From positions 1 through 64,000 of the forward strand of contig JAPYPR010000010.1 of NCBI GenBank assembly GCA_029937545.1: a stretch of 64,000 nt of DNA, written 5' to 3'. Every line of letters starts with the position of its first letter. The first letter of the stretch is position 1. Below, one piece after another: positions 9,436 to 26,849 of this stretch. The notes below the pieces were generated by a model that ran no database searches, was not told the DNA's origin, and saw only the letters and a program-made list of their open reading frames with translations. This DNA comes from Erythrobacter sp. GTDB lineage: Bacteria > Pseudomonadota > Alphaproteobacteria > Sphingomonadales > Sphingomonadaceae. The translations under genes and the position numbers were made by a program.

Positions 9436-11388
9436 ATGAAAGCGTTAGAGCCGATCTCGATAGCGGGCGTGCAGATACCCAACCGGGTGGTGCGCACTGC
9501 GCACGGAACCCATTTTGGGGACGGCGGTATCGTGCCTAGCTTGATAGATTATCACGTCGAACGCGCTCGCGGCGGTGTGGGTCTCACCATTCTCGAAATA
9601 GCCGGCGTCCACTTCACCTGTCCCTCGTCGATATGCAATTTCGATGATTCGATCATCGAAGGCTACTCCCGGCTGATGGAGGCGGTGCGTCCGCACGGTA
9701 TGCGCGTGTTCCAGCAATTATGGCATGCTGGGCATAATGGCGTGCCAATAGATGGTGGCCCGCCATGGTCGTCCTGCGACCTGCCCAGTCCGGTCCTCGG
9801 CATTGTGCCAATCGCCATGAGCAAGGCGCAGATCGACGAGATCGTAGCATCCTTCGCCGCCGCGGCAGAACGCTGCAAGAAAGGCGGAATAGACGGCGTC
9901 GAACTCCATGCCTCGCACGGATATCTGCCGCAGCAGTTCATGTCCGCCATGCTCAACCACCGTGAAGACGAATATGGCGGCAGTTTCGAAAACCGGATGC
10001 GCTTCACCGTCGAGGTGCTGTCCGCCATTCGCGAACGCGTCGGTGCCAATTATCCTGTCGGTGTTCGGCTAAGCCCTGAAATTATCGATGGCGGTATGAC
10101 TCCCGAGGAAACTGCGAAGGCGGCGAGCTATCTCGAAGAGCGGGGGCTCATTGATTTCCTAGACGTGTCGATGGGCGGTTATTTCGCGTTTCCCAAGATG
10201 ATCGGCGGGATGTTCGAGCCTGCGGGCTACGAACTCCCTACGAGCGCCCCTGTAACGTCTGCGGTGAAGGTTCCCCGCATCGTAACGGGTCGTTTCCGTA
10301 CGTTGGAAGAAGTCAGCCAGGTTATTTCTGAAGGAACGGCCGATCTTGTCGGAATGACCCGTGCGCACATTGCAGACGCTGCAATCGTGCGCAAAACACG
10401 CGAAGGCAGAGAGGACGAAATCCGTCCCTGTATCGCTTGCAACCAAGGCTGCGTGGGAATGCTGCTGGGCCCGGAACGGCGAATGGGCTGCACGGTCAAT
10501 CCCTATATCGGGCGCGAAGGCGAAATCAACGACGACGCATTACCGCGGTCGGATAAGAAGCTTACAGTTCTGGTAGTCGGCGGCGGTCCTGCCGGGATGG
10601 AAGCGGCCCGCGTCGCGCGGTTGCGGGGACACAATGTCATTCTTGCCGAAGCCGCATCCGAGTTGGGCGGGCAAATCAGGATAGCAGCGCTCGCTCCACG
10701 CCACCAGGCGATCGCGGATTACACATTGTGGCAGGAATCGGAAATCTATCGTCTGGGCGTCGATGTTCGGTTGAGCACCTATGTCGATGCAGATGATATC
10801 GCCCAGTTCGAGGCCGATAAGGTGATTGTGGCAACAGGATCCTATCCGCGTATGGACGGGATTCAGCTCGCCATTCCAGCGCGTCCAATGAACGGAATCG
10901 AGCATTCCGATGCGATGTCGTCGATCGAGTTTTTCACGGACCGACGTAATTCAAAACCGTCGCACGCGATCGTAATAGACGATGTCGGCCACTATGAGGG
11001 GATCGCGGTCGCGGAAGCGTTAATCGAGAAAGGCGCCGAAGTAACTTTCGTCACACGTCACAAGGCGTTCGCTCATCTCCTGGAATCCGCGCTCCAGCCG
11101 GAACCGGCTCTGCAAAGGCTCAATCAGGGCAAATTCCGCCTGCATCTGCGCTCGCATGTAGACACGTTCGATGGCTCCGAGGCAGTCTTGCATGATCTCA
11201 ATGGCGGCGGAAAACACCGCGTACCGGCCGAATGGGCAGTGATGATCAGCCATAATCGCTCGGCTATCGAACCGTTCGAAGGTCTGCGTCAGTCAAATCC
11301 CGGCACGATGGTGGTCGGGGATGCAAACAGCCCGCGTTTTCTTTTGCGCGCTATCGCCGAAGGAAACAGCGCCGGCTGCCAGGTCTGA
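9436..11388 (+). CDS. old-yellow-enzyme / 2,4-dienoyl-CoA reductase-type flavoprotein
   Basis: The 650-residue enzyme has an FMN TIM barrel (about 1-325), a 4Fe-4S cluster region with Cys residues in CIACNQGCVG (about 332-341) and GCTVNP (about 351-356), and a C-terminal NAD(P)H/FAD domain starting LTVLVVGGGPAGMEAARVAR (about 376-395). This is the architecture of FadH and of the bile-acid enzymes BaiCD/BaiH, which reduce conjugated enone or dienoyl-CoA bonds. It reduces or, in reverse, desaturates C=C bonds next to carbonyls. It heads a run followed by P450, flavoprotein, SDR and CoA-ligase genes. The precise substrate cannot be read from sequence. Confidence 0.88.
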   Translation: MKALEPISIAGVQIPNRVVRTAHGTHFGDGGIVPSLIDYHVERARGGVGLTILEIAGVHFTCPSSICNFDDSIIEGYSRLMEAVRPHGMRVFQQLWHAGHNGVPIDGGPPWSSCDLPSPVLGIVPIAMSKAQIDEIVASFAAAAERCKKGGIDGVELHASHGYLPQQFMSAMLNHREDEYGGSFENRMRFTVEVLSAIRERVGANYPVGVRLSPEIIDGGMTPEETAKAASYLEERGLIDFLDVSMGGYFAFPKMIGGMFEPAGYELPTSAPVTSAVKVPRIVTGRFRTLEEVSQVISEGTADLVGMTRAHIADAAIVRKTREGREDEIRPCIACNQGCVGMLLGPERRMGCTVNPYIGREGEINDDALPRSDKKLTVLVVGGGPAGMEAARVARLRGHNVILAEAASELGGQIRIAALAPRHQAIADYTLWQESEIYRLGVDVRLSTYVDADDIAQFEADKVIVATGSYPRMDGIQLAIPARPMNGIEHSDAMSSIEFFTDRRNSKPSHAIVIDDVGHYEGIAVAEALIEKGAEVTFVTRHKAFAHLLESALQPEPALQRLNQGKFRLHLRSHVDTFDGSEAVLHDLNGGGKHRVPAEWAVMISHNRSAIEPFEGLRQSNPGTMVVGDANSPRFLLRAIAEGNSAGCQV

Positions 11389-11451: not shown

Positions 11452-12696
11452 ATGACTTCAGCGGCCCAAAGTGCGGACTCTGCCAAGTTGAATTTCGCTG
11501 ACCCACAAGTGATGGAATGTCCTTATCCGTTGTACAAGAAGCTACGGAACGAGGCGCCGGCCTATTTTGTCGAAGAGGCGGGATTCTGGATAATCAGCCG
11601 TTACGACGATTGTCTGGCGGCAGTCAAAAACCCCAAGGTTTTCTCCAGCAAGATGGGTTTTCGGCCGGGCGCCGTTCCTGAAGAGGTGACACGCATTTTC
11701 AACGAGGAAGGTTTCGGGGCGCTCCCCGATACGCTGGTCAGCAACGATCCCCCCTCGCACACCCGCTATCGCAAGCTGGTCGACCGCACCTTTACCGCTG
11801 GCCGTGTGCGTCAAATGGAAGATTACATGGTCGAGGTCGTCACCCAGCTAATTGACGATTTCATCGGACACGGGCGCCTGAAGGTGATGCACGATTTCGC
11901 CATTCCCGTGCCCATGTACGTTATTGCAGACCAACTCGGCGTTCCCCGCAGCGATCGTGACAAGTTCAAACAATGGTCGGATGCAGCGGTTGCGCCGCTG
12001 GGCCTCCTAATATCCGATGAGCGCAAGATCGAATGCGCCAAGCTGGCGGTCGAAATGCATCACTATTTCGCCAAGGTCTTCGCCGATCGACGGGAGAATC
12101 CGCGCGACGACATCATTTCCGATCTGGTTACGAAAGAAGTCGACGGGAAGCCACTGGACACTCCGGAGCTGCTTTCGGTTCTCGACCAACTTCTCGTGGC
12201 CGGGAACGAAACCACTACAAGCGCGATCGGGGCTTCGGTCGTTCGCCTTGCGCAGGAACCCGAGCTTGTTGAACGCCTCGCTGCCGAACCTGAAAAATGC
12301 AACAATTTCGCAGAAGAAATCCTGCGGCACGAATCCCCGGTTCAAGGACTGTTCCGGATGACGACCGAGGATGCCGAAATCGGCGGAACGACCATTCCCA
12401 AAGGCAGCTTGGTTAACCTGCGATACGGCTCGGCTAACCGGGACGAAGAGAAGTATGACTGTCCTGCGGATTTCGATGTAGATCGCAAGAATGCTTCCTC
12501 GCATCTCGCTTTCGGAGCCGGGATTCATCATTGTATCGGAGCTCAACTGGCGCGCCGCGAAATCGCAATCGCCGTACGCGAACTGACAGGGCGGCTGAAG
12601 GACATCCGCCTGGCCGAGCCGGACAAGCTTTCGCACACGCCAAGCGTCATCCTGCGCGGACTCAATGAATTCGAAATCGAATTCTCGAAGCGTTGA
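11452..12696 (+). CDS. cytochrome P450
   Basis: This 414-residue soluble class I bacterial P450 would hydroxylate the pathway substrate using O2 and electrons from a ferredoxin. The I-helix oxygen-activation motif is LVAGNETTTSAIG (about 248-260) and the K-helix ExxR is in EEILRHESP. The haem loop FGAGIHHCIGAQLARRE (about 354-370) contains the thiolate Cys. The N-terminus has no membrane anchor. No ferredoxin or ferredoxin reductase gene lies in the window, so the electron donor must come from elsewhere. The next gene starts 7 nt after its stop. Confidence 0.93.
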   Translation: MTSAAQSADSAKLNFADPQVMECPYPLYKKLRNEAPAYFVEEAGFWIISRYDDCLAAVKNPKVFSSKMGFRPGAVPEEVTRIFNEEGFGALPDTLVSNDPPSHTRYRKLVDRTFTAGRVRQMEDYMVEVVTQLIDDFIGHGRLKVMHDFAIPVPMYVIADQLGVPRSDRDKFKQWSDAAVAPLGLLISDERKIECAKLAVEMHHYFAKVFADRRENPRDDIISDLVTKEVDGKPLDTPELLSVLDQLLVAGNETTTSAIGASVVRLAQEPELVERLAAEPEKCNNFAEEILRHESPVQGLFRMTTEDAEIGGTTIPKGSLVNLRYGSANRDEEKYDCPADFDVDRKNASSHLAFGAGIHHCIGAQLARREIAIAVRELTGRLKDIRLAEPDKLSHTPSVILRGLNEFEIEFSKR

Positions 12697-12703
12697 GGGC
12701 GAG

Positions 12704-14143
12704 ATGCAAGACGATATGACCTTTGATTACGATGTCATTGTGATTGGCGGCGGAGGTGCCGGAATGGCGGCTGCCATCACGGCGCATGACCACGGAGCGC
12801 GCGTGGCACTGCTGGAAGCTGCGGAGCAGCTTGGCGGATCGACGGCACTTTCGGGCGGCGTGGTCTATGGCGCGCCGACCAGTGTGCAGCGCGCCGCCGG
12901 CATCAAAGATGACAGCGTCGATGCGATGTTCGAATATTACATGACGCTCAACCAGCATAAGGTGGAGCCGGGGATAGTCCGGCGGCTTTGCGAACTGTCC
13001 GGGCCCGCCATCGAATGGTTGATCCGCCTCGGCGTGAAGTTCGACCCCGCGGATCTCTACGCCTCAGGTGTAGAAAGCGTTGCTCGCGGCCACAAGGCAG
13101 CTGGCAACGGGGCCGCCATTACCGAGGTTCTCGACCGCGAAGTCAATCACCGCGATATTGACGTTTCGCTCGGCTGCCGGGTGACTGCGTTGCATACCGA
13201 CGAAAACGGCGCAGTGCGCGGCGTGAAGCTTGACGGGGAAATCGTCACCGCCCGGAATGTTATTATTGCGACAGGAGGGTTCGGCCACAACAAGCTGCTC
13301 TTGAACCGCCATTATCCCGAAGCGGCCCAGCACGGCGACTGGACATGGGCCATTACCGCAAAAACATGCACTGGCGACGGCTTGCTGATGGGTCAGGACG
13401 TCGGCGCGGATATCGCCGGTCATGACCGGGGTCTCCTCCTGACCACGCCTGGCTTTTATCGTGACCTTGAAGTCTTCGTGCCCGGATGGCTGGTGTACGT
13501 GAACCGCGAAGGCCGGCGTTTCATCGACGAGACGACCGAATATGCGGTGATGTCCGGAGTGGTAAAGGATCAGATCGGCGGATCGGTCTTCGCAATCTTC
13601 GACGAGAATGCACGCGCCACGGCAGAGCCTGAACCGCGCTATGCCGATGCGCACAAGGCCGGCATCATCACGCTGAACTGGGTGACCGACAAGATCGACG
13701 AGCAGATCGCAAAGGGCAAGGTCGTCAAGGCCGACACGCTCCCCGAACTGGCCGATCAAGTGGGCATTGAAAGCGATACGCTGGAAACGACGATAGCCCG
13801 TTACAACTCGGACTACGAGAAGGGCGAGGACAGCAAGTTCCGCAAGGAAGCCGGTCTGATGAAGCCAGTCTTGCAGCCGCCTTTCTACGCCGCGGAAATC
13901 CGTCCTGCAATCGTCTGCCTCACCTCTACCGGACTGCGAGTGGATGAGGACATGCATGTTCTCGACAGCGCCGACCGGCCTATCGAGGGGCTGTTTTCCG
14001 CAGGCGAGGTTTCGGGAGGTGTTCTGGGCGACCGTTACATCGGGGGCGGCAATTCCATCGCCAATGCGATCGTCTTTGGCCGTGTGGCAGGTGAGCAGGC
14101 GGCGCATGAAGCAGGGGCGACCGCAAATAGGGAGCCAGCATGA
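12704..14143 (+). CDS. FAD-dependent oxidoreductase of the fumarate reductase / ketosteroid dehydrogenase superfamily
   Basis: This 479-residue flavoprotein has the N-terminal dinucleotide fold YDVIVIGGGGAGMAAAITA, an internal VNREGRRFIDETTEYAVM segment of the substrate-capping domain, and a C-terminal FAD loop YIGGGNSIANAIVFGRVAGE. The family includes fumarate and urocanate reductases and 3-ketosteroid delta-1/delta-4 dehydrogenases. The C-terminal loop is closer to the reductase branch, so delta-1 ketosteroid dehydrogenase activity should not be assumed. ATG 12704 is preferred because GAGGG sits just before it; the ATG at 12665 would overlap the P450 gene by 32 nt. The gene overlaps the following SDR by 4 nt. 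Confidence 0.85.
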   Translation: MQDDMTFDYDVIVIGGGGAGMAAAITAHDHGARVALLEAAEQLGGSTALSGGVVYGAPTSVQRAAGIKDDSVDAMFEYYMTLNQHKVEPGIVRRLCELSGPAIEWLIRLGVKFDPADLYASGVESVARGHKAAGNGAAITEVLDREVNHRDIDVSLGCRVTALHTDENGAVRGVKLDGEIVTARNVIIATGGFGHNKLLLNRHYPEAAQHGDWTWAITAKTCTGDGLLMGQDVGADIAGHDRGLLLTTPGFYRDLEVFVPGWLVYVNREGRRFIDETTEYAVMSGVVKDQIGGSVFAIFDENARATAEPEPRYADAHKAGIITLNWVTDKIDEQIAKGKVVKADTLPELADQVGIESDTLETTIARYNSDYEKGEDSKFRKEAGLMKPVLQPPFYAAEIRPAIVCLTSTGLRVDEDMHVLDSADRPIEGLFSAGEVSGGVLGDRYIGGGNSIANAIVFGRVAGEQAAHEAGATANREPA

Positions 14144-20577: not shown

Positions 20578-21570
20578 ATGAATAAACCGGCATCTTCGCC
20601 TTCGCTCTCGCCCGATATGGCGCGGACCATTTACCGCAAGGCCTATCTTATTAACCGGACGGACGAGCGGTTTCGTGCGATGCTGACCAATGGCGAACTG
20701 GCGGTCGCTTATTATCCCGTTCGGGGGCACGAGGTGATCGCTGCCGCGGCGATGGCGGCGCTCGAGACAGAGGATTACCTCGTCACCACCTATCGCGGGC
20801 TTCACGATGCGCTGGGCAAGGGTATTCCTTCGCGCCTGCTTTGGGCCGAGTTTGCGGGCAAGCGAACAGGCACCTGCAAGGGCAAGGGAGGTCCGATGCA
20901 CATCACCCATCCCGAAACGGGCGTCATGGTCACCACCGGGATCGTGGGGTCGGGTATTCCGATCGCCAACGGACTGGCGATGTCATCGCAAATTCGCGGC
21001 GAAAACCGCGTGGCGGTGGCGAGCTTCGGCGACGGGGCCAGCAATATCGGTGCGTTCCATGAAGCGCTTAACATGGCATCTGTGTGGAAACTGCCGGTGA
21101 TCTTCCTGTGCCAAAACAACCAATATGCCGAGCATACGGCGCTCGCGGCCGGCACATCGGTATCCAGCATCGCGGAACGCGCGGCGGGGTATGGCATGCC
21201 GGGTGTGTCCTGCGACGGTCTCGACCCAGCCAGTGTTTATGAAGCAATGAGCGAAGCGGTCAGCCGGGCGCGTGCCGGTGACGGCCCGACCCTGCTCGAA
21301 GCGCGCACTTTCAGGTTGCTGGGGCATATCTTCGGCGCGGACTTTAGCTATGTCCCCAAGGAAGACCTGAGCGCCGCGGAAGAACGTGCCAGCATGACGA
21401 AGCTACGCCAGTGGTTCAGCGAACGACAGGTATCCGAGAAAGAACTGACACAGATCGAGGAGGACGTCGATGCCGAGATCGACGAGGCTGTCGCCTTCGC
21501 TCTGGAAAGCGAACCGCCCGACCCGGACGATATCAGGTTCGATATCTATGAAACGGAGCAAGCGGCATGA
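20578..21570 (+). CDS. thiamine-diphosphate-dependent dehydrogenase E1, alpha subunit
   Basis: This 330-residue E1-alpha resembles pyruvate/acetoin dehydrogenase subunits. The ThDP-Mg motif is GDGASNIGAFHEALNM (about 148-163), followed by IFLCQNNQYAEHT. The phosphorylation-loop analogue RLLGHIFGADFSYVPKED is also present. With the beta subunit it would decarboxylate a 2-oxo acid or cleave an acyloin and pass the acyl group to a lipoyl arm. It overlaps the beta-subunit gene by 4 nt. Assignment to pyruvate or acetoin specifically is not justified; the locus suggests a pathway-specific 2-oxo acid or ketol. Confidence 0.88.
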   Translation: MNKPASSPSLSPDMARTIYRKAYLINRTDERFRAMLTNGELAVAYYPVRGHEVIAAAAMAALETEDYLVTTYRGLHDALGKGIPSRLLWAEFAGKRTGTCKGKGGPMHITHPETGVMVTTGIVGSGIPIANGLAMSSQIRGENRVAVASFGDGASNIGAFHEALNMASVWKLPVIFLCQNNQYAEHTALAAGTSVSSIAERAAGYGMPGVSCDGLDPASVYEAMSEAVSRARAGDGPTLLEARTFRLLGHIFGADFSYVPKEDLSAAEERASMTKLRQWFSERQVSEKELTQIEEDVDAEIDEAVAFALESEPPDPDDIRFDIYETEQAA

Positions 21571-22565
21571 GCGCGGAGAAAACAAGTTTTGCACAGGCGT
21601 TGAACGCGGCGCTCGATGACGCGATGGCGGATGACGAGAACGTCATCATGCTGGGCGAGGACGTTGCCGATGAACAGGGCGGTGGCGTGTTCAAGGTCAG
21701 CAAGGGGCTATCGGGCAAATATGGCACGAAGCGTGTGCGCTCTACACCCATCTCCGAGCAGGCGATAATCGGGGCCGCTGTCGGCGCAGCCATCACCGGC
21801 ATGCGCCCTGTGGCCGAGATCATGCTGATGAACTTCATCACTGTGGCTATGGACCAACTGGTCAACCACGCTGCGAAGCTGCGGTTCATGTCTGGCGGAC
21901 AGACGAATGTTCCTCTGGTCGTGCGCACGACCACCGGTGCGGGCGTGGGTTTTGGCGGGCAGCATTCCGATATGCTGGAAGCCTGGTTCGCGCATGTTCC
22001 GGGGATGAAGATCGCCACCGCATCCAATCCGGCCGATGCCTATGGCCTGATGCGTTCGGCAATCGACGATGAGGACCCAACCATTCTGATCGAGAATATC
22101 ACCCATTACGGAATGACCGGTCCGGCTGCCGTGCCGGGCTACCGCGTGCCGCTGGGTAAGGCGGCGATTTCGCGCGAGGGCGGGGACGTTACTCTCATAA
22201 CCTATGGCCGGGGCGTTGGCGATTGCCTGAAGGCGGCGGACCAGCTTGCCGATGAAGGCATCGAGGCGGAAGTGATCGATCTGCGCACCGTATCGCCCTG
22301 GGACGAGGAAGCAGTCCTGTCCTCGGTCGCCAAGACCAAGCGCGCGGTGATCGTGCACGAAGCAGTGCGTCCGTTCGGTGCTGGCGCAGAAATCTCCTCG
22401 CGCATTCACGAGGAACTGTTCGGTGAACTGGCGGGACCGGTCCGGCGGGTTGCGTCCTATCCATCGCCCGTTCCCTTTGCAAAACCGCTGGAAACGGCCT
22501 TTCTCTACAGCGTCGCGGACATCGTCCATGCAGCGCGTGAAACCACCCAGAAGAAAGTACAGTAA
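21567..22565 (+). CDS. thiamine-diphosphate-dependent dehydrogenase E1, beta subunit
   Basis: This 332-residue transketolase-like E1-beta contains the pyrimidine-binding domain (MLGEDVADEQGGGVFKVSKG at about 29-48; FGGQHSDMLEAWFAHVPGM). A C-terminal transketolase domain ends IVHAARETT. It completes a heterotetrameric E1 with the preceding gene and is fused to it by an ATGA overlap. Its stop overlaps the start of a lipoyl-domain gene (TAATG). No dihydrolipoyl acyltransferase core or dihydrolipoamide dehydrogenase follows, which is unlike ordinary acetoin or pyruvate dehydrogenase operons. Confidence 0.88.
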   Translation: MSAEKTSFAQALNAALDDAMADDENVIMLGEDVADEQGGGVFKVSKGLSGKYGTKRVRSTPISEQAIIGAAVGAAITGMRPVAEIMLMNFITVAMDQLVNHAAKLRFMSGGQTNVPLVVRTTTGAGVGFGGQHSDMLEAWFAHVPGMKIATASNPADAYGLMRSAIDDEDPTILIENITHYGMTGPAAVPGYRVPLGKAAISREGGDVTLITYGRGVGDCLKAADQLADEGIEAEVIDLRTVSPWDEEAVLSSVAKTKRAVIVHEAVRPFGAGAEISSRIHEELFGELAGPVRRVASYPSPVPFAKPLETAFLYSVADIVHAARETTQKKVQ

Positions 22566-22795
22566 TGAGCGTAGAAGTTCGCATACCCAAGCTTGGCATG
22601 AGCACGGAAACCGCCACCCTTTCCGAATGGTACGTCGAAAACGGCGCGCAGATAACCAAGGGTGCGCCGCTATATGCAGTTGAAACTGATAAATCGACCA
22701 CCGAAGTGGACGCACCCGCCGACGGACAGGTCGAGATCATCGGCGAAATCGATGCCGAATACGAAGTGGGTGCCTTGATCGCGCGGATTACCTGA
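22565..22795 (+). CDS. stand-alone biotinyl/lipoyl-domain carrier protein
   Basis: This 76-residue protein consists of one lipoyl/biotinyl domain. The modified Lys lies in the turn VETDKSTTEVDAPADGQVEI (about 38-57). ETDK fits lipoylation and differs from the AMKM turn of biotin carriers. A normal E2 would continue with a peripheral-subunit-binding domain and a catalytic acyltransferase of about 230 residues; here the gene simply stops and the next one begins. It is therefore a mobile lipoyl arm, probably served by the E1 encoded just upstream. The acyl acceptor enzyme is not encoded nearby. Confidence 0.85.
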   Translation: MSVEVRIPKLGMSTETATLSEWYVENGAQITKGAPLYAVETDKSTTEVDAPADGQVEIIGEIDAEYEVGALIARIT

Positions 22796-22824: not shown

Positions 22825-23235
22825 ATGGATGACGATATTTTTATCAGCGCGGAAGGGGGCAAAGCCCGGATTGTTGCGGGAAAGCACCGGCAAACCGGAC
22901 AAGTAGTCTTTCCAAGGCCGCAAGGGACAGAAGAAGAGGACTTCCAACGGATCGAGTTGCCGCTAAGCGGCACATTGTGGACCTATACGGTCCAGCGCAT
23001 TCCGCCGAAGAACCCGCCATTTGTAGGTGTAAACAGTCCCGAAGACTACCAGCCCTATGCCGTGGGCTATATCCAGTTCGGCGATCAGGTAATGATCGAA
23101 GGCCGGATCGCGGGCGACCCTGATAGTCTTGAGATCGGTATGCGGATGGACAGCGTACCCCTGTCATTCCCTACTCCAGATGGGGCAGAGATGACGACAT
23201 ATGCCTTCGCACCGGCAAATGGGAGCAGATCATGA
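22825..23235 (+). CDS. DUF35 OB-fold protein lacking zinc-ribbon cysteines
   Basis: This 136-residue DUF35-type protein is the usual partner of thiolase-like aldolases and ketosynthases. The OB-fold signatures are GTLWTYTVQRIPPK and YQPYAVGYIQFGDQVMIEGR. The N-terminal part normally carries a four-Cys zinc ribbon (C-x2-C-G...FP), but here reads GKHRQTGQVVFPRP with no Cys in the whole protein. ATG 22825 is chosen because GGAGTAGGA precedes it; ATG 22798 has no ribosome site. The stop overlaps the thiolase-like gene by 4 nt. In steroid side-chain degradation the analogous DUF35 domain of ChsH2 activates the aldolase Ltp2. Confidence 0.82.
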   Translation: MDDDIFISAEGGKARIVAGKHRQTGQVVFPRPQGTEEEDFQRIELPLSGTLWTYTVQRIPPKNPPFVGVNSPEDYQPYAVGYIQFGDQVMIEGRIAGDPDSLEIGMRMDSVPLSFPTPDGAEMTTYAFAPANGSRS

Positions 23236-24377
23236 ACGACGTGTATGTGATAGGGGCAGGTATCCACCCATTCGGACGGCATGAGGGGAAGACCGGTCTC
23301 GACCTCGGGGTCGATGCGACGAAGCTGGCGGTGGAAGACAGCGGAATCGCGTGGGAAGATGTAGAGGCAGCGTTTGGTGGTTCCTCGGCCTCCGGCAATG
23401 CGGATGCCGTGCTTCCGCGCATGGGCCTGACCGGGATTCAATTCATCAACGTGGCCAACGGCTGTGCCACAGGCGGTTCTTCCGTTCTGTCTGCCTACTG
23501 GGCTATCAAGGCGGGGGAATTCGAAACGGCCTTGGCGGTCGGGTTCGACAAACATCCGCGCGGATCGTTCAATCCCGATCCGGTCAGATATGGCCTGCCG
23601 CAGTGGTACGGTGAAACTGGTATGATGCTGACAACCCAGTTCTTTGCGATGAAGATCCAGCGATACATGCACGATTACGGGATTTCTACTAAATCGCTGG
23701 CGAAGGTCGCTGCCAAGGCGTTTCACAACGGTTCGAAGACCCCCCATGCCTGGCGCCGCACACCGATGGATGCCGATACCGTGCTTCAATCACGTATGAT
23801 CAGCGATCCGTTGACGCAATATATGTTTTGCAGCCCATCGGAGGGCGGGGTCGCCCTGATCCTGGCGTCTGAGAAGAAGGCACGCCAACTCGGACGTACC
23901 CAGGTCAAGCTTCGTGCGGCTGCGCTCAAGACCCGGCCGGAAAACAGTTTCGAGGTCTTCTCTCCCTCGCTATCGGTCGAGCGGGGCGAAACGCCGACCA
24001 TGCTGGCAGCTCGCGCAGCTTTCGAGAAGGCGGGGGTGGGCCCTGAAGATATCGATATCGCCCAGGTCCAGGATACCGAGAGCGGCGCTGAAATCATGCA
24101 TATGGCCGAGAACGGCTTTTGCCGAGACGGAGAACAGGAACAATGGATTGCCGAGGGACGCACTGCGATCGGCGGTGAATTGCCGGTCAATACGGATGGG
24201 GGCTGTATTGCCTGCGGGGAACCGATCGGCGCTTCGGGCCTGCGGCAGGTTTATGAAAATGTCCTCCAACTTCGCGGTCAGGCAGAAAACCGGCAAGTCG
24301 AAGGCGCCCGGTTGGCTTTTTCACAGGTCTATGGCGCGCCAGGGCTTTCGGCGGTCGCAATCCTCGAGAAAGGATAG
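23232..24377 (+). CDS. thiolase-like protein (Ltp2-type aldolase / SCP2-thiolase family)
   Basis: This 381-residue thiolase-fold protein has NGCATGGSSVLSAYWAIKAG (about 76-95) at the nucleophile loop. It differs from true thiolases at the other two catalytic positions. The conserved Gly-His-Pro loop is CGEPIGASGLRQ, with Glu for His, and the final Cys loop is replaced by QVYGAPGL with a Tyr. Such changes are known in the Ltp2 retro-aldolases that release a ketone and a short acyl-CoA from branched beta-hydroxyacyl-CoA. Overlap with the DUF35 gene supports a complex. I favour aldolase over thiolase; the older name would be lipid-transfer protein or acetyl-CoA acetyltransferase. Confidence 0.82.
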   Translation: MNDVYVIGAGIHPFGRHEGKTGLDLGVDATKLAVEDSGIAWEDVEAAFGGSSASGNADAVLPRMGLTGIQFINVANGCATGGSSVLSAYWAIKAGEFETALAVGFDKHPRGSFNPDPVRYGLPQWYGETGMMLTTQFFAMKIQRYMHDYGISTKSLAKVAAKAFHNGSKTPHAWRRTPMDADTVLQSRMISDPLTQYMFCSPSEGGVALILASEKKARQLGRTQVKLRAAALKTRPENSFEVFSPSLSVERGETPTMLAARAAFEKAGVGPEDIDIAQVQDTESGAEIMHMAENGFCRDGEQEQWIAEGRTAIGGELPVNTDGGCIACGEPIGASGLRQVYENVLQLRGQAENRQVEGARLAFSQVYGAPGLSAVAILEKG

Positions 24378-24455: not shown

Positions 24456-25157
24456 TTGCTGAATATCCAAACAACTTACGATAGTCCCGGGATGGCTGAA
24501 AGGCGTCGGCGGATTCTCCATGAAACCCGCAAGCTCATCAATGAAGAGGGACTGGAGGGGTTCAGCATGCGGGAACTCAGCAAGCGGGCTAATGTCGCGC
24601 CCAAGACCCTTTATAATGCTTTCGGCGACCGGGATCGACTGATCGGCTTGGCTATTCGCGAAATGTATGATGCTTTGCGCTACAACGTAAAGTTCAAGAC
24701 GTCCGACAAAACGCTTTCCGGCCTGCTAGATCGGGCCATTGTATTGAACCGGGGCAATCTGAAGGCGCGCAATTACGCAAAAGCGGTAGCGACAATCTAT
24801 TTCGCCCCCGGAACACATTTGGAGTTGCGCGATATTCTGCAGGAGATGGCAGTCGGCAAGACCAGCGAATGGCTGGCCGATCTCCGCACGAAAGGGCAGC
24901 TTCATGACTGGGTCGATATCGAACATCTGACGCGGCACATGGCCAACATGGAATATGCCCTGATTCTGGACTGGGCGACCGGGAGGGTAAAGGACTCAGA
25001 ATACCTGTTTCGCTTTGCCGAAATCGTGCTTTTCAGTGCGCTGGCTTCGACACGGGGCGAAGTTTACGAAACCGCGCGGACAATGATGGTCCGCATGGCC
25101 GAAACCCGCGAGGTTCCCTCATTCGGAAACCCGGTTATCGGCCACCAGAGTTCGTAA
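24456..25157 (+). CDS. TetR-family transcriptional regulator
   Basis: This 233-residue one-component regulator has an N-terminal helix-turn-helix (about 17-63) containing GFSMRELSKRANVAPKTLYN and a helical ligand-binding domain behind it. TTG 24456 is used so that the YDSPGMAERRRRIL extension, usual in this sphingomonad group, is included; ATG 24492 is the alternative. It lies 78 nt after the thiolase-like gene on the same strand and closes the catabolic locus. It probably represses that locus until a substrate or CoA-ester binds. The operator was not identified with confidence. Confidence 0.88.
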   Translation: MLNIQTTYDSPGMAERRRRILHETRKLINEEGLEGFSMRELSKRANVAPKTLYNAFGDRDRLIGLAIREMYDALRYNVKFKTSDKTLSGLLDRAIVLNRGNLKARNYAKAVATIYFAPGTHLELRDILQEMAVGKTSEWLADLRTKGQLHDWVDIEHLTRHMANMEYALILDWATGRVKDSEYLFRFAEIVLFSALASTRGEVYETARTMMVRMAETREVPSFGNPVIGHQSS

Positions 25158-25660: not shown

Positions 25661-26714
25661 TTAAATCGCAGTGCATTCGAACGCGTAGATCGTTCGGCTT
25701 GCGAAGCTGCGTCCGGGATGCAGGATCGTGGCGGGGAAGTGTGCTAGGTTCGGACTGTCGGGGAAGAATTGCGTTTCCAGCGCGATGGCGCTGTGAGGCG
25801 CGTATATTCTTCTGTTTTTACCCTTCGGCTCGCCGCCGAGGAACTTGGCGGATTAGAGCTGCAGCCCGGGCATGTCGGTGTGAACCGTCATGCGGCGGCC
25901 ACTGGCAGGGTCGAAAAGCGTAGCGGCTTCGCGCATGCCGGCGCCGTTTAGCGCGAAGCAGTGATCGTAACCCTTGCCGAGCGCGAGCTGTGCGTCCGGT
26001 GCGTCGATGTCGCGGGCGATCGGCTTGGGCTCGCGGAAATCGAATGGCGTCGATGCGACATCGGCCAACGCCCCGCTCGGGATGAGCTCGGGCGTTACCG
26101 GGAGGTAATGATCGGCGTGGATGGAAAGGACGTGGTCGAGCACGCTGGGCGCGCTCGCGCCCGCTAAATTCCAGTAGCTGTGTTGCGTCGGATTGAACGG
26201 CGTCGGCGCGTCGGTTTCCGCCGTGTAATCGGTGACGAGCCGGCGATCCTCGGTCCAGACGTAGCGCATGCTGGCGCGCAGATTGCCGGGATAGCCCTGG
26301 TCCCCGTCCGCGCTTTCCAGCGTGAAGGACACGCCGTCGCCCTCGCTCGTGCTGCTGAAGGCTTCCCCGCTCCAGCCGCGCTTGTCGAAGCCTTCCCGTC
26401 CGCCGTGCAATGCGTTCGGCGGTGGGTTCGCGTCGAGCACGTAAGTGTCCATCCAGCGTGAAGCGCGCGCCGGCGATGCGATTGGCGAAGCGTCCGATCA
26501 CCGCGCCGTGGTAATGGGGTTCGGAGAGACAGGTCGCGGCGCTGTCCTAGCCGAGGACTACGTCCGCGAGGTGGCCTCTGCGATCGGGCACCTCGAGCGA
26601 CAGCATCGTCGCGCCGAGATCCATGACCGTAAGCACTGCGCCATCAGCGCTTTCCAACCACCAGCTATGGACATCGCGGCTGTCGGCCAGCGCTTCTAAG
26701 AACCGCTTCTCCAC
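25661..26714 (-). pseudogene. galM: aldose 1-epimerase, disrupted
   Basis: Read across frames, this is a galactose mutarotase of about 350 residues. Recognisable pieces include LESADGAVLTVMDLGATMLS, AVIGRFANRIAGARFTLDG, NPTQHSYWNLAG, the catalytic region KGYDHCFALNG, and a C-terminal APHSAIALETQFFPDSPN. Three lesions are visible: an in-frame TAG at 26547-26549 right after ADVVLG, a frameshift near 26447-26453 (about one extra base) before DTYVLDANPPP, and TAA at 25853-25855 after MPGLQL. A GTG at 26712-26714 is the probable original start and the original stop is at 25661-25663. Downstream codons remain protein-like, so decay is recent. Confidence 0.88.
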
Positions 26715-26849
26715 TATCTTGGGCGGCGCAGCAGATTGCCTGCGCGTGGACAAGCGCGAAGTGCGGATGGGGGCGAAAATGCCTCGCGGCTTGAAAAAGA
26801 CTCGCAAACAGTGTGCTGGAGGCAGCAACGCAAGAGAGAGGCATTCGCG

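Follow-up and report, generated by a model that had tools for sequence, protein, structure and literature searches.

What does a thiolase-fold protein do when its nucleophile is kept and most of its other catalytic positions are replaced? The question is raised by a gene pair in 64,000 nucleotides of Erythrobacter sp. DNA (contig JAPYPR010000010.1, positions 1 to 64,000; this whole stretch is called the window), in which a DUF35 gene and a thiolase-fold gene overlap, as open frames, by 4 bases (23232-23235). The original prediction, which noted this overlap correctly, took the pair for a retro-aldolase complex with a zinc-independent OB-fold subunit. The answer favoured here, held with about even confidence, is a Cys78-based acyl-transferring enzyme of thiolytic or retro-Claisen type, with rebuilt acid/base residues, the DUF35 protein as structural partner and a link to a thiamine-dependent E1 dehydrogenase. 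The pair and its key residues are encoded as follows:

22825-23235, plus strand: DUF35 / ChsH2-type OB-fold protein, 136 amino acids, no Cys (PF01796, OB_ChsH2_C, E 4.5e-13)
23232-24377, plus strand: thiolase-fold protein with rewired active site, 381 amino acids (PF22691, Thiolase_C_1, E 2.5e-34; PF00108, Thiolase_N, E 4.1e-11)
23463-23465, plus strand: codon of Cys78, the thiolase nucleophile, in NGC78ATGG (82/82 alignment rows)
24069-24080, plus strand: QDTE, residues 280-283, where thiolases have HDCF/HDAF and aldolases YDHF/YDCY (82/82 rows)
24204-24224, plus strand: C325-I-A-C328-G-E330-P331, where LxxxGHP is expected (C325, C328 and E330 in 82/82 rows)
24330-24344, plus strand: YGAPG loop, residues 367-371, replacing the Gly-rich/second-Cys loop (81/81 rows with that end)

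Active site and relatives of the thiolase-fold protein

A contig scan returned at least 577 relatives, the best 80 of which were kept as related loci; together with the window and its own genome copy (L001) they form an alignment of 82 rows. Cys78, Q280-E283, C325, C328 and E330 are invariant throughout, and Y367-G371 is found in 81/81 rows, the remaining row being gapped there. Among the features expected of a thiolase, the nucleophilic Cys of the N-terminal half is present, while the GHP histidine (GEP at 329-331 in 82/82 rows) and the HDxF motif (QDTE) are not. In the alignment Cys78 is intact, whereas the two His positions of thiolases and the Cys positions that normally act in acid/base catalysis are invariantly replaced, and the invariant residue set, judged from the sequences, is the mark of one family, beyond chance. 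The original prediction had read Gly-Glu-Pro for Gly-His-Pro and the Tyr-Gly-Ala-Pro-Gly loop accurately; the intact Cys78 nucleophile and the change of HDCF/YDxF to QDTE, which are the decisive facts, were missing from it. Replacement of most acid/base positions might also point to a non-catalytic or regulatory thiolase fold, but this is very improbable, since among 34 rows that are 65-94% identical to the window 122 columns do not vary, Cys78 and the rewired motif among them, as is typical of a kept active site.

The residues can be compared with those of known enzymes in a 22-row alignment that includes seven solved chains and underlies both the motif table and the tree. The steroid aldolases Ltp2-ChsH2 and Sal-Shy (6ok1, 9myr) combine a thiolase fold with a DUF35 partner and have lost the GHP His, as here. 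In the accessible part of one source, the residues given for the aldolases are, for Ltp2, Tyr294 and Tyr344 and, for Sal, Tyr302 and Cys304, and with a Gly at the nucleophile position Sal is incapable of thiolysis (PMC12329534); the accessible part of another describes Sal1, Sal2 and their homologues as having no thiolase cysteine (PMC8399759). However, the Tyr base that Ltp2 and Sal carry within YDHF/YDCY is Gln in the window protein, and their Gly at the nucleophile position is Cys. Tyr294/302 aligns to Gln280, His296/Cys304 to Thr282, Tyr344/Gln352 and the GHP His to Glu330, and the missing nucleophile to Cys78. With the Tyr base gone and the nucleophile kept, the family is, at the level of aligned residues, the mirror image of the aldolases. 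If the Tyr of the YGAPG loop was originally intended to take the place of the aldolase Tyr residues, the alignment does not support this, as the aldolase Tyr positions align to Gln280 and Glu330 instead.

A retro-aldolase of the Ltp2/Sal/IpfDE kind would split a beta-hydroxyacyl-coenzyme A (CoA) into an acyl-CoA and a ketone or aldehyde, and Tyr367, Glu330 or Thr282 would be its new acid/base. Besides the architecture shared with Ltp2-ChsH2, the ibuprofen degradation system argues for it. IpfD and IpfE, identified by accession, lie on the minus strand of pIBU218 (L131:7640-8827 and L131:7229-7627, respectively). IpfE, the DUF35 partner in ibuprofen-CoA dihydrodiol cleavage, has two cysteines, only one of them in the ribbon region, and so, like the window DUF35, no zinc ribbon; a CoA ligase and a ring-hydroxylating dioxygenase are its neighbours, as a CoA ligase and a Rieske oxygenase are in the window cluster. 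IpfD itself, labelled both retro-aldolase and thiolase within the accessible text of PMC9195938, is unlike the window protein: it has YDAF, no Cys at the nucleophile column and a place on the aldolase side of the tree. A retro-aldolase is rather unlikely given that the catalytic Tyr of YDxF/Y is Gln280 in 82/82 rows, that the Tyr344 position is Glu330, that the nucleophile is kept in 82/82 rows where 6ok1 and 9myr have Gly, that the family separates from Ltp2, Sal and IpfD at 100/99 in the tree, and that two Rhodococcus loci (L084, L122) already hold an aldolase-type lipid-transfer protein with a zinc-ribbon DUF35 beside the pair. On these features the protein does not group with the Ltp2/Sal-type aldolases, whose Tyr base motif, missing nucleophile Cys and clade it does not share.

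Fold and sequence comparisons point in the same direction. An AlphaFold2 model of the protein (34 sequences; pLDDT 81, pTM 0.87) matches best the SCP2-thiolase 6hrv_B (Z 47.5, root-mean-square deviation 2.0, 350 residues aligned); other Z values are 46.7 for 6esq, 46.5 for BbsB (7pyt), 43.5 for PhlC, 41.0 for Ltp2 and 39.0 for Sal. The sequence ranking is led by SCP2 thiolase 6hsj (E 1.6e-45), 7yvy (3.1e-44) and BbsB (1.4e-41), with the aldolases Ltp2 (6ok1, 9.4e-28) and Sal (9myr, 6.3e-27) below them. In the 22-row tree, the nine family rows fall together (support 100/100), and a split at 100/99 places them on the thiolase side with SCP2 thiolase, BbsB and a Sphingopyxis thiolase, among which the sister is left without resolution, and apart from CtSal, Ltp2, IpfD and other lipid-transfer proteins. 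Both the tree and the predicted fold place the protein with the SCP2-type (6hrv/6hsj) and benzoylsuccinyl-CoA (BbsAB, 7pxp/7pyt) thiolases, with which it also has the nucleophile Cys in common and, in the case of BbsAB, a DUF35 partner. However, SCP2 thiolase and BbsB have HDCF/HDAF, GHP and a Gly-rich loop, whereas the window pair has QDTE, GEP, YGAPG and a DUF35 without ribbon cysteines, and a common fold is not proof of a reaction.

Another enzyme of comparable fold is the Friedel-Crafts acylase PhlABC. A C-acylase of this kind, or an enzyme of beta-diketone/aryl-ketone cleavage, would transfer acyl groups to, or remove them from, a carbon that is not the acyl-CoA alpha carbon, and a different leaving group of this sort would be consistent with the disappearance of the residues that bind an acyl-CoA enolate. 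PhlABC has a DUF35 subunit, and in the accessible parts of the source PhlC works without CoA, its Cys88 being essential and bearing the acyl group. But, from the same excerpts, PhlC retains His347, which with Tyr298 lies near Cys88, and PhlB its zinc ribbon; there is also a third subunit, PhlA. No such 3-hydroxy-3-methylglutaryl-CoA (HMG-CoA)-synthase-like subunit stands directly beside the window pair, which is flanked by a lipoyl protein and a TetR regulator, and none is annotated in five loci. Such a function for the pair is unlikely.

The DUF35 partner and the range of the family

While the window DUF35 protein has the PF01796 OB-fold domain, it has no cysteine and hence no zinc ribbon (four Cys, or Cys3His); ChsH2 and Shy have ribbons of the C4 or C3H1 type. 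Its AlphaFold2 model (pLDDT 91) is closest to BbsA (7pxp_B, Z 12.8), with the archaeal thiolase partner at 12.3, PhlB at 10.9, ChsH2 at 10.4 and Shy at 10.0. Residues 1 to ~132 of the model can be aligned with zinc-ribbon DUF35 chains over their full length, and the ribbon region seems, as modelled, to persist without metal ligands. A ribbon motif is absent from the 78 of 80 loci with an adjacent DUF35 (L060 among them is cut before the ribbon region; L035 and L036, cut before DUF35, are uncounted), from all 82 proteobacterial rows with a DUF35 (the window, these 78 loci and three plasmid loci) and from 22 further Sphingomonadales loci (L148-L167, L169, L170). The cysteine-free DUF35 of the original prediction is thereby borne out, and of its zinc-independent retro-aldolase complex the zinc-free OB-fold stands, while the retro-aldolase part finds no support in Gln280, Glu330, Cys78 or the tree.

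The absence of zinc does not extend to the whole family. Nine actinobacterial loci from Rhodococcus, Streptomyces and Mycobacterium branderi (L084, L085, L121, L122, L124-L128) keep Cys78, QDT(E/D), GEP and YGAPG; QDTD replaces QDTE in L085 and L128, and position 328 is Asn in all nine as well as in L148. Eight of these loci, whose active-site signature is almost that of the window, have a DUF35 with a CxxC...CxxC ribbon, and no DUF35 was found beside the thiolase in L085, nor in the outgroups L120 and L123. Since zinc ribbons are kept in actinobacterial members, the zinc-free DUF35 is not tied to the catalytic switch; zinc loss is most simply a later change inside the family. The gene pair can survive loss of the ribbon, and, as IpfE also has no ribbon motif, a zinc-free DUF35 is not unique. 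A link between zinc loss and Cys328 (82 zinc-free rows with C328 versus eight zinc-bearing with N328) was rejected, as L148 has N328 without a ribbon. In the two Rhodococcus loci named above (L084:8719-10340, L122:4121-5721), the lipid-transfer protein that accompanies the family pair has YDCF, a second Tyr and no nucleophile Cys, and the zinc-ribbon DUF35 is its own.

The family is widespread in bacteria. Among the best 60 of 576 plasmid records, 19 lie at 49-65% identity and the next at 36%, a clear gap. In genome searches, in which the best few candidates per genome were scored, a thiolase match at E <= 1e-90 occurs in 49/296 Sphingomonadales genomes, and one at E <= 1e-70 in 3/398 genomes drawn from the phylum, one of the three (G408) being an HDAF/GHP relative. 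Ten Thiolase_C_1 proteins from 13 related genomes include two with QDTE/GEP (the window and G005), four with HDCF and GHP and four with YDxx and no nucleophile Cys. One Sphingomonadales thiolase copy (G122, locus L168) still has a TetR gene after it and looks like a decaying remnant. The family is a clade with a new active-site variant of an already known architecture. In the accessible portions of the open-access PubMed Central (PMC) literature, no description was found of the family or of an E1-lipoyl-DUF35-thiolase operon.

Association with a thiamine-dependent E1 and a lone lipoyl protein

Directly around the pair, the window contains the following genes:

20578-21570, plus strand: E1 alpha subunit of a thiamine-dependent dehydrogenase, 330 amino acids (PF00676, E 1.8e-67)
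21567-22565, plus strand: E1 beta subunit, 332 amino acids (PF02779/PF02780, E 5e-37/3.5e-39)
22565-22795, plus strand: stand-alone lipoyl-domain protein, 76 amino acids, lipoylation motif ETDKSTTE (PF00364, E 1.8e-14)
24456-25157, plus strand: TetR-type regulator downstream of the thiolase (PF00440, E 4.3e-10; same position in L002-L007)

The order E1alpha-E1beta-lipoyl-DUF35-thiolase is head to tail, with successive spacings of -4, -1, +29 and -4 bases, and the TetR-type protein is probably the regulator of the cluster. An E1 match is present in 28/80 loci (22/50 among loci of at least 19 kb), with E1 alpha beside E1 beta in 27 of the 28; L012 shows E1 beta only, near the start of its stretch. 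Four E1b-like places (E <= 1e-10) occur over the 3.04 Mb of the window genome, and by our own estimate about 0.03 E1 would be expected by chance per 21 kb. E1b at >=60% identity occurs in 32/296 Sphingomonadales genomes, 30 of which also have the thiolase. The Fisher value for this co-occurrence, 7e-26, is inflated by kinship (18/30 belong to one genus); counted by genus, it is 11/11 versus 17/79 (1.4e-9). At a 58% cut the ratio becomes 30/33, with G226 added, and two genomes, G191 and G292, have the E1 without the thiolase. E1b and thiolase lie <=20 kb apart in 23 of the 30 genomes, and 39-622 kb apart or on separate contigs in the other seven. Nineteen thiolase genomes do not have that E1 type; of the 15 among them that were read, seven carry a less closely related E1 alpha no farther than 2 kb away. 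The thiolase pair is often found with a thiamine E1 dehydrogenase.

The lipoyl protein has no E2 catalytic domain and resembles acetoin/2-oxoacid dehydrogenases with E2 in its E1alpha/E1beta neighbours and its lipoyl domain, but is a separate protein of 76 residues on a contig without an E2 acyltransferase domain. Single-domain lipoyl proteins accompany the E1 type of the window: all 35 lipoyl open reading frames (ORFs) above 45 bits (including two window copies and one L006 remnant) end 0-5 residues past the domain, i.e., are single-domain; weaker matches in L009, L024 and L072 sit in longer ORFs. A three-gene module, in which a ~76-residue lipoyl protein stands straight after E1alpha/E1beta with no E2, recurs in Sphingomonadales (22565-22795; L029, L027, L030 and others). 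In L083, L086 and L087 and, by match, also in L069 and L072, a full E2 accompanies a more distant E1, following it in the first three, but no lipoyl or E2 match was seen beside the E1s of L010, L011, L019, L034 and L044, so that no general rule of a full E2 with the other E1 type is drawn. The window genome holds three E2 acyltransferase domains, and of its four E1b-like places two outside the window share a contig with an E2, while the fourth is a 29% match.

An E1-lipoyl module without its own E2 raises the question of its acyl acceptor, and Cys78 might take the acyl group from the E1-loaded, free-standing lipoyl protein and pass it to CoA or a carbon acceptor. If so, this would be a 2-oxoacid/acyloin dehydrogenase system without E2, with the thiolase-fold pair in its place. 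The closely packed gene order, the single-domain lipoyl proteins, the location of all three E2 domains off the window's contig and the 30/32 co-occurrence favour such a role, and transacylation, which requires a Cys nucleophile and no enolate chemistry, fits the residues kept and lost. However, members also stand beside an E1 with a full E2 (L083, L086, L087) or beside E1s with no lipoyl or E2 match in the stretch (the five loci above), actinobacterial plasmid members have no annotated E1 in the stretch shown, G191 and G292 have the E1 without a thiolase, and a housekeeping E2 could serve. Locus L006, from a metagenome assembly with an 86% identical thiolase, is a natural loss of the E1 module (L006:9387-10001): it retains the Rieske gene, a 57-residue lipoyl remnant, intact DUF35, thiolase and TetR, so that the pair survives loss of E1 and most of the lipoyl gene. 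That L006 keeps the pair without E1 lowers slightly a probability that was already small. Substitution for E2 is the best fit to the window operon but a poor fit to the wider family and L006, and is quite improbable.

Proposed reaction and genomic surroundings

Thiolysis, C-acylation and retro-aldol cleavage are already known for DUF35-partnered thiolase folds. In the favoured Cys78-based reading, the DUF35 and thiolase-fold proteins would be subunits of one DUF35-dependent thiolase-superfamily enzyme working by covalent acyl transfer. By analogy with BbsAB, the archaeal thiolase/HMG-CoA synthase complex and PhlABC, the OB-fold subunit may bind the thiolase dimer and shape the acyl/CoA channel, here without zinc. 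Cys78 would attack a ketone or thioester carbonyl, with its own backbone amide and those of the YGAPG loop stabilising the oxyanion. Cleavage of the C-C bond would follow, and the leaving carbanion, perhaps other than an ordinary acyl-CoA enolate, might be handled by Glu330, Gln280 and Thr282, which by position stand in for His/Cys; finally, the acyl group on Cys78 would pass to CoA or another thiol. Such an unusual set of residues points to either pure transacylation or a leaving group that differs from a plain acyl-CoA enolate. A kept nucleophile with the other catalytic positions invariantly replaced may mark undescribed chemistry or an undescribed substrate class in environmental bacteria.

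Several observations weigh against the Cys78-based reading. Gln, Thr and Glu occur at the positions in question in none of the seven solved chains of the motif table, so that the acid/base assignment is one by position. The ranking of thiolases over aldolases by sequence could partly stem from the common cysteine region, and the differences in fold Z are modest, with model loops 109-115, 120-122, 128-133 and 192-202 below pLDDT 50. As L006 has no E1 match, E1alpha/E1beta being lost and the pair intact, the E1 link is not universal, and in G122 (L168) the thiolase is without its first 23 residues and has no DUF35 or E1 match in 15 kb. Enoyl-CoA hydratases, sought with seven query proteins, are present in only 12/50 long loci, a misfit for an ordinary beta-oxidation thiolase, although the enzyme might still be one.

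The enzyme might serve in a pathway that breaks down a bulky substrate, perhaps similar to a terpenoid or steroid, often alongside a dehydrogenase step by a thiamine E1. Genes nearby, both in the window and in its relatives, include P450, acyl-CoA dehydrogenases, short-chain dehydrogenases/reductases (SDRs), a Rieske oxygenase, an LEH/SnoaL-like protein and an ADH_N_2-type reductase, and these suggest a terpenoid- or steroid-like compound, which is a guess. Farther upstream, the window encodes a Rieske oxygenase, a TonB receptor, a CoA ligase, an SDR, a KstD-like flavoprotein and a P450, together with a BaiCD/OYE-like protein, a transporter and two acyl-CoA dehydrogenases, of which one is encoded on the opposite strand; upstream neighbours without a Pfam or NCBIfam result were named by reading their translations. 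The BaiCD/mycofactocin-OYE-like flavoenzyme (9436-11388) and the KstD-like flavoprotein (12665-14143) hint at a steroid-/terpenoid-type substrate.

The bile-salt side-chain cluster of Sphingobium Chol11 was considered as the same pathway and rejected, as in the accessible part of PMC8399759 the steroid thiolase is marked absent and no E1 is named. The genes listed there (Table 1), and in a similar Caenibius cluster, are an amidase, Scd4AB, SclA, a monooxygenase, MaoC and hydrolases. The estradiol edc cluster, as far as the accessible text describes it, contains a chsH2-like gene, a lipid-transfer protein, thiolases and an HMG-CoA-synthase-like gene, with the 2-oxoacid step carried out by an indolepyruvate oxidoreductase.

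A scan for promoters and terminators gave a signal below shuffle expectation. At 1333-2241, on the minus strand, an ISXO2/IS1595-type transposase-like frame, recognised from its translation, adjoins a TonB receptor. Downstream of the TetR gene, at 25853-26828 on the minus strand, an aldose-1-epimerase-like sequence seems, by its ORF translations, to be split over two frames, as if frameshifted or truncated.

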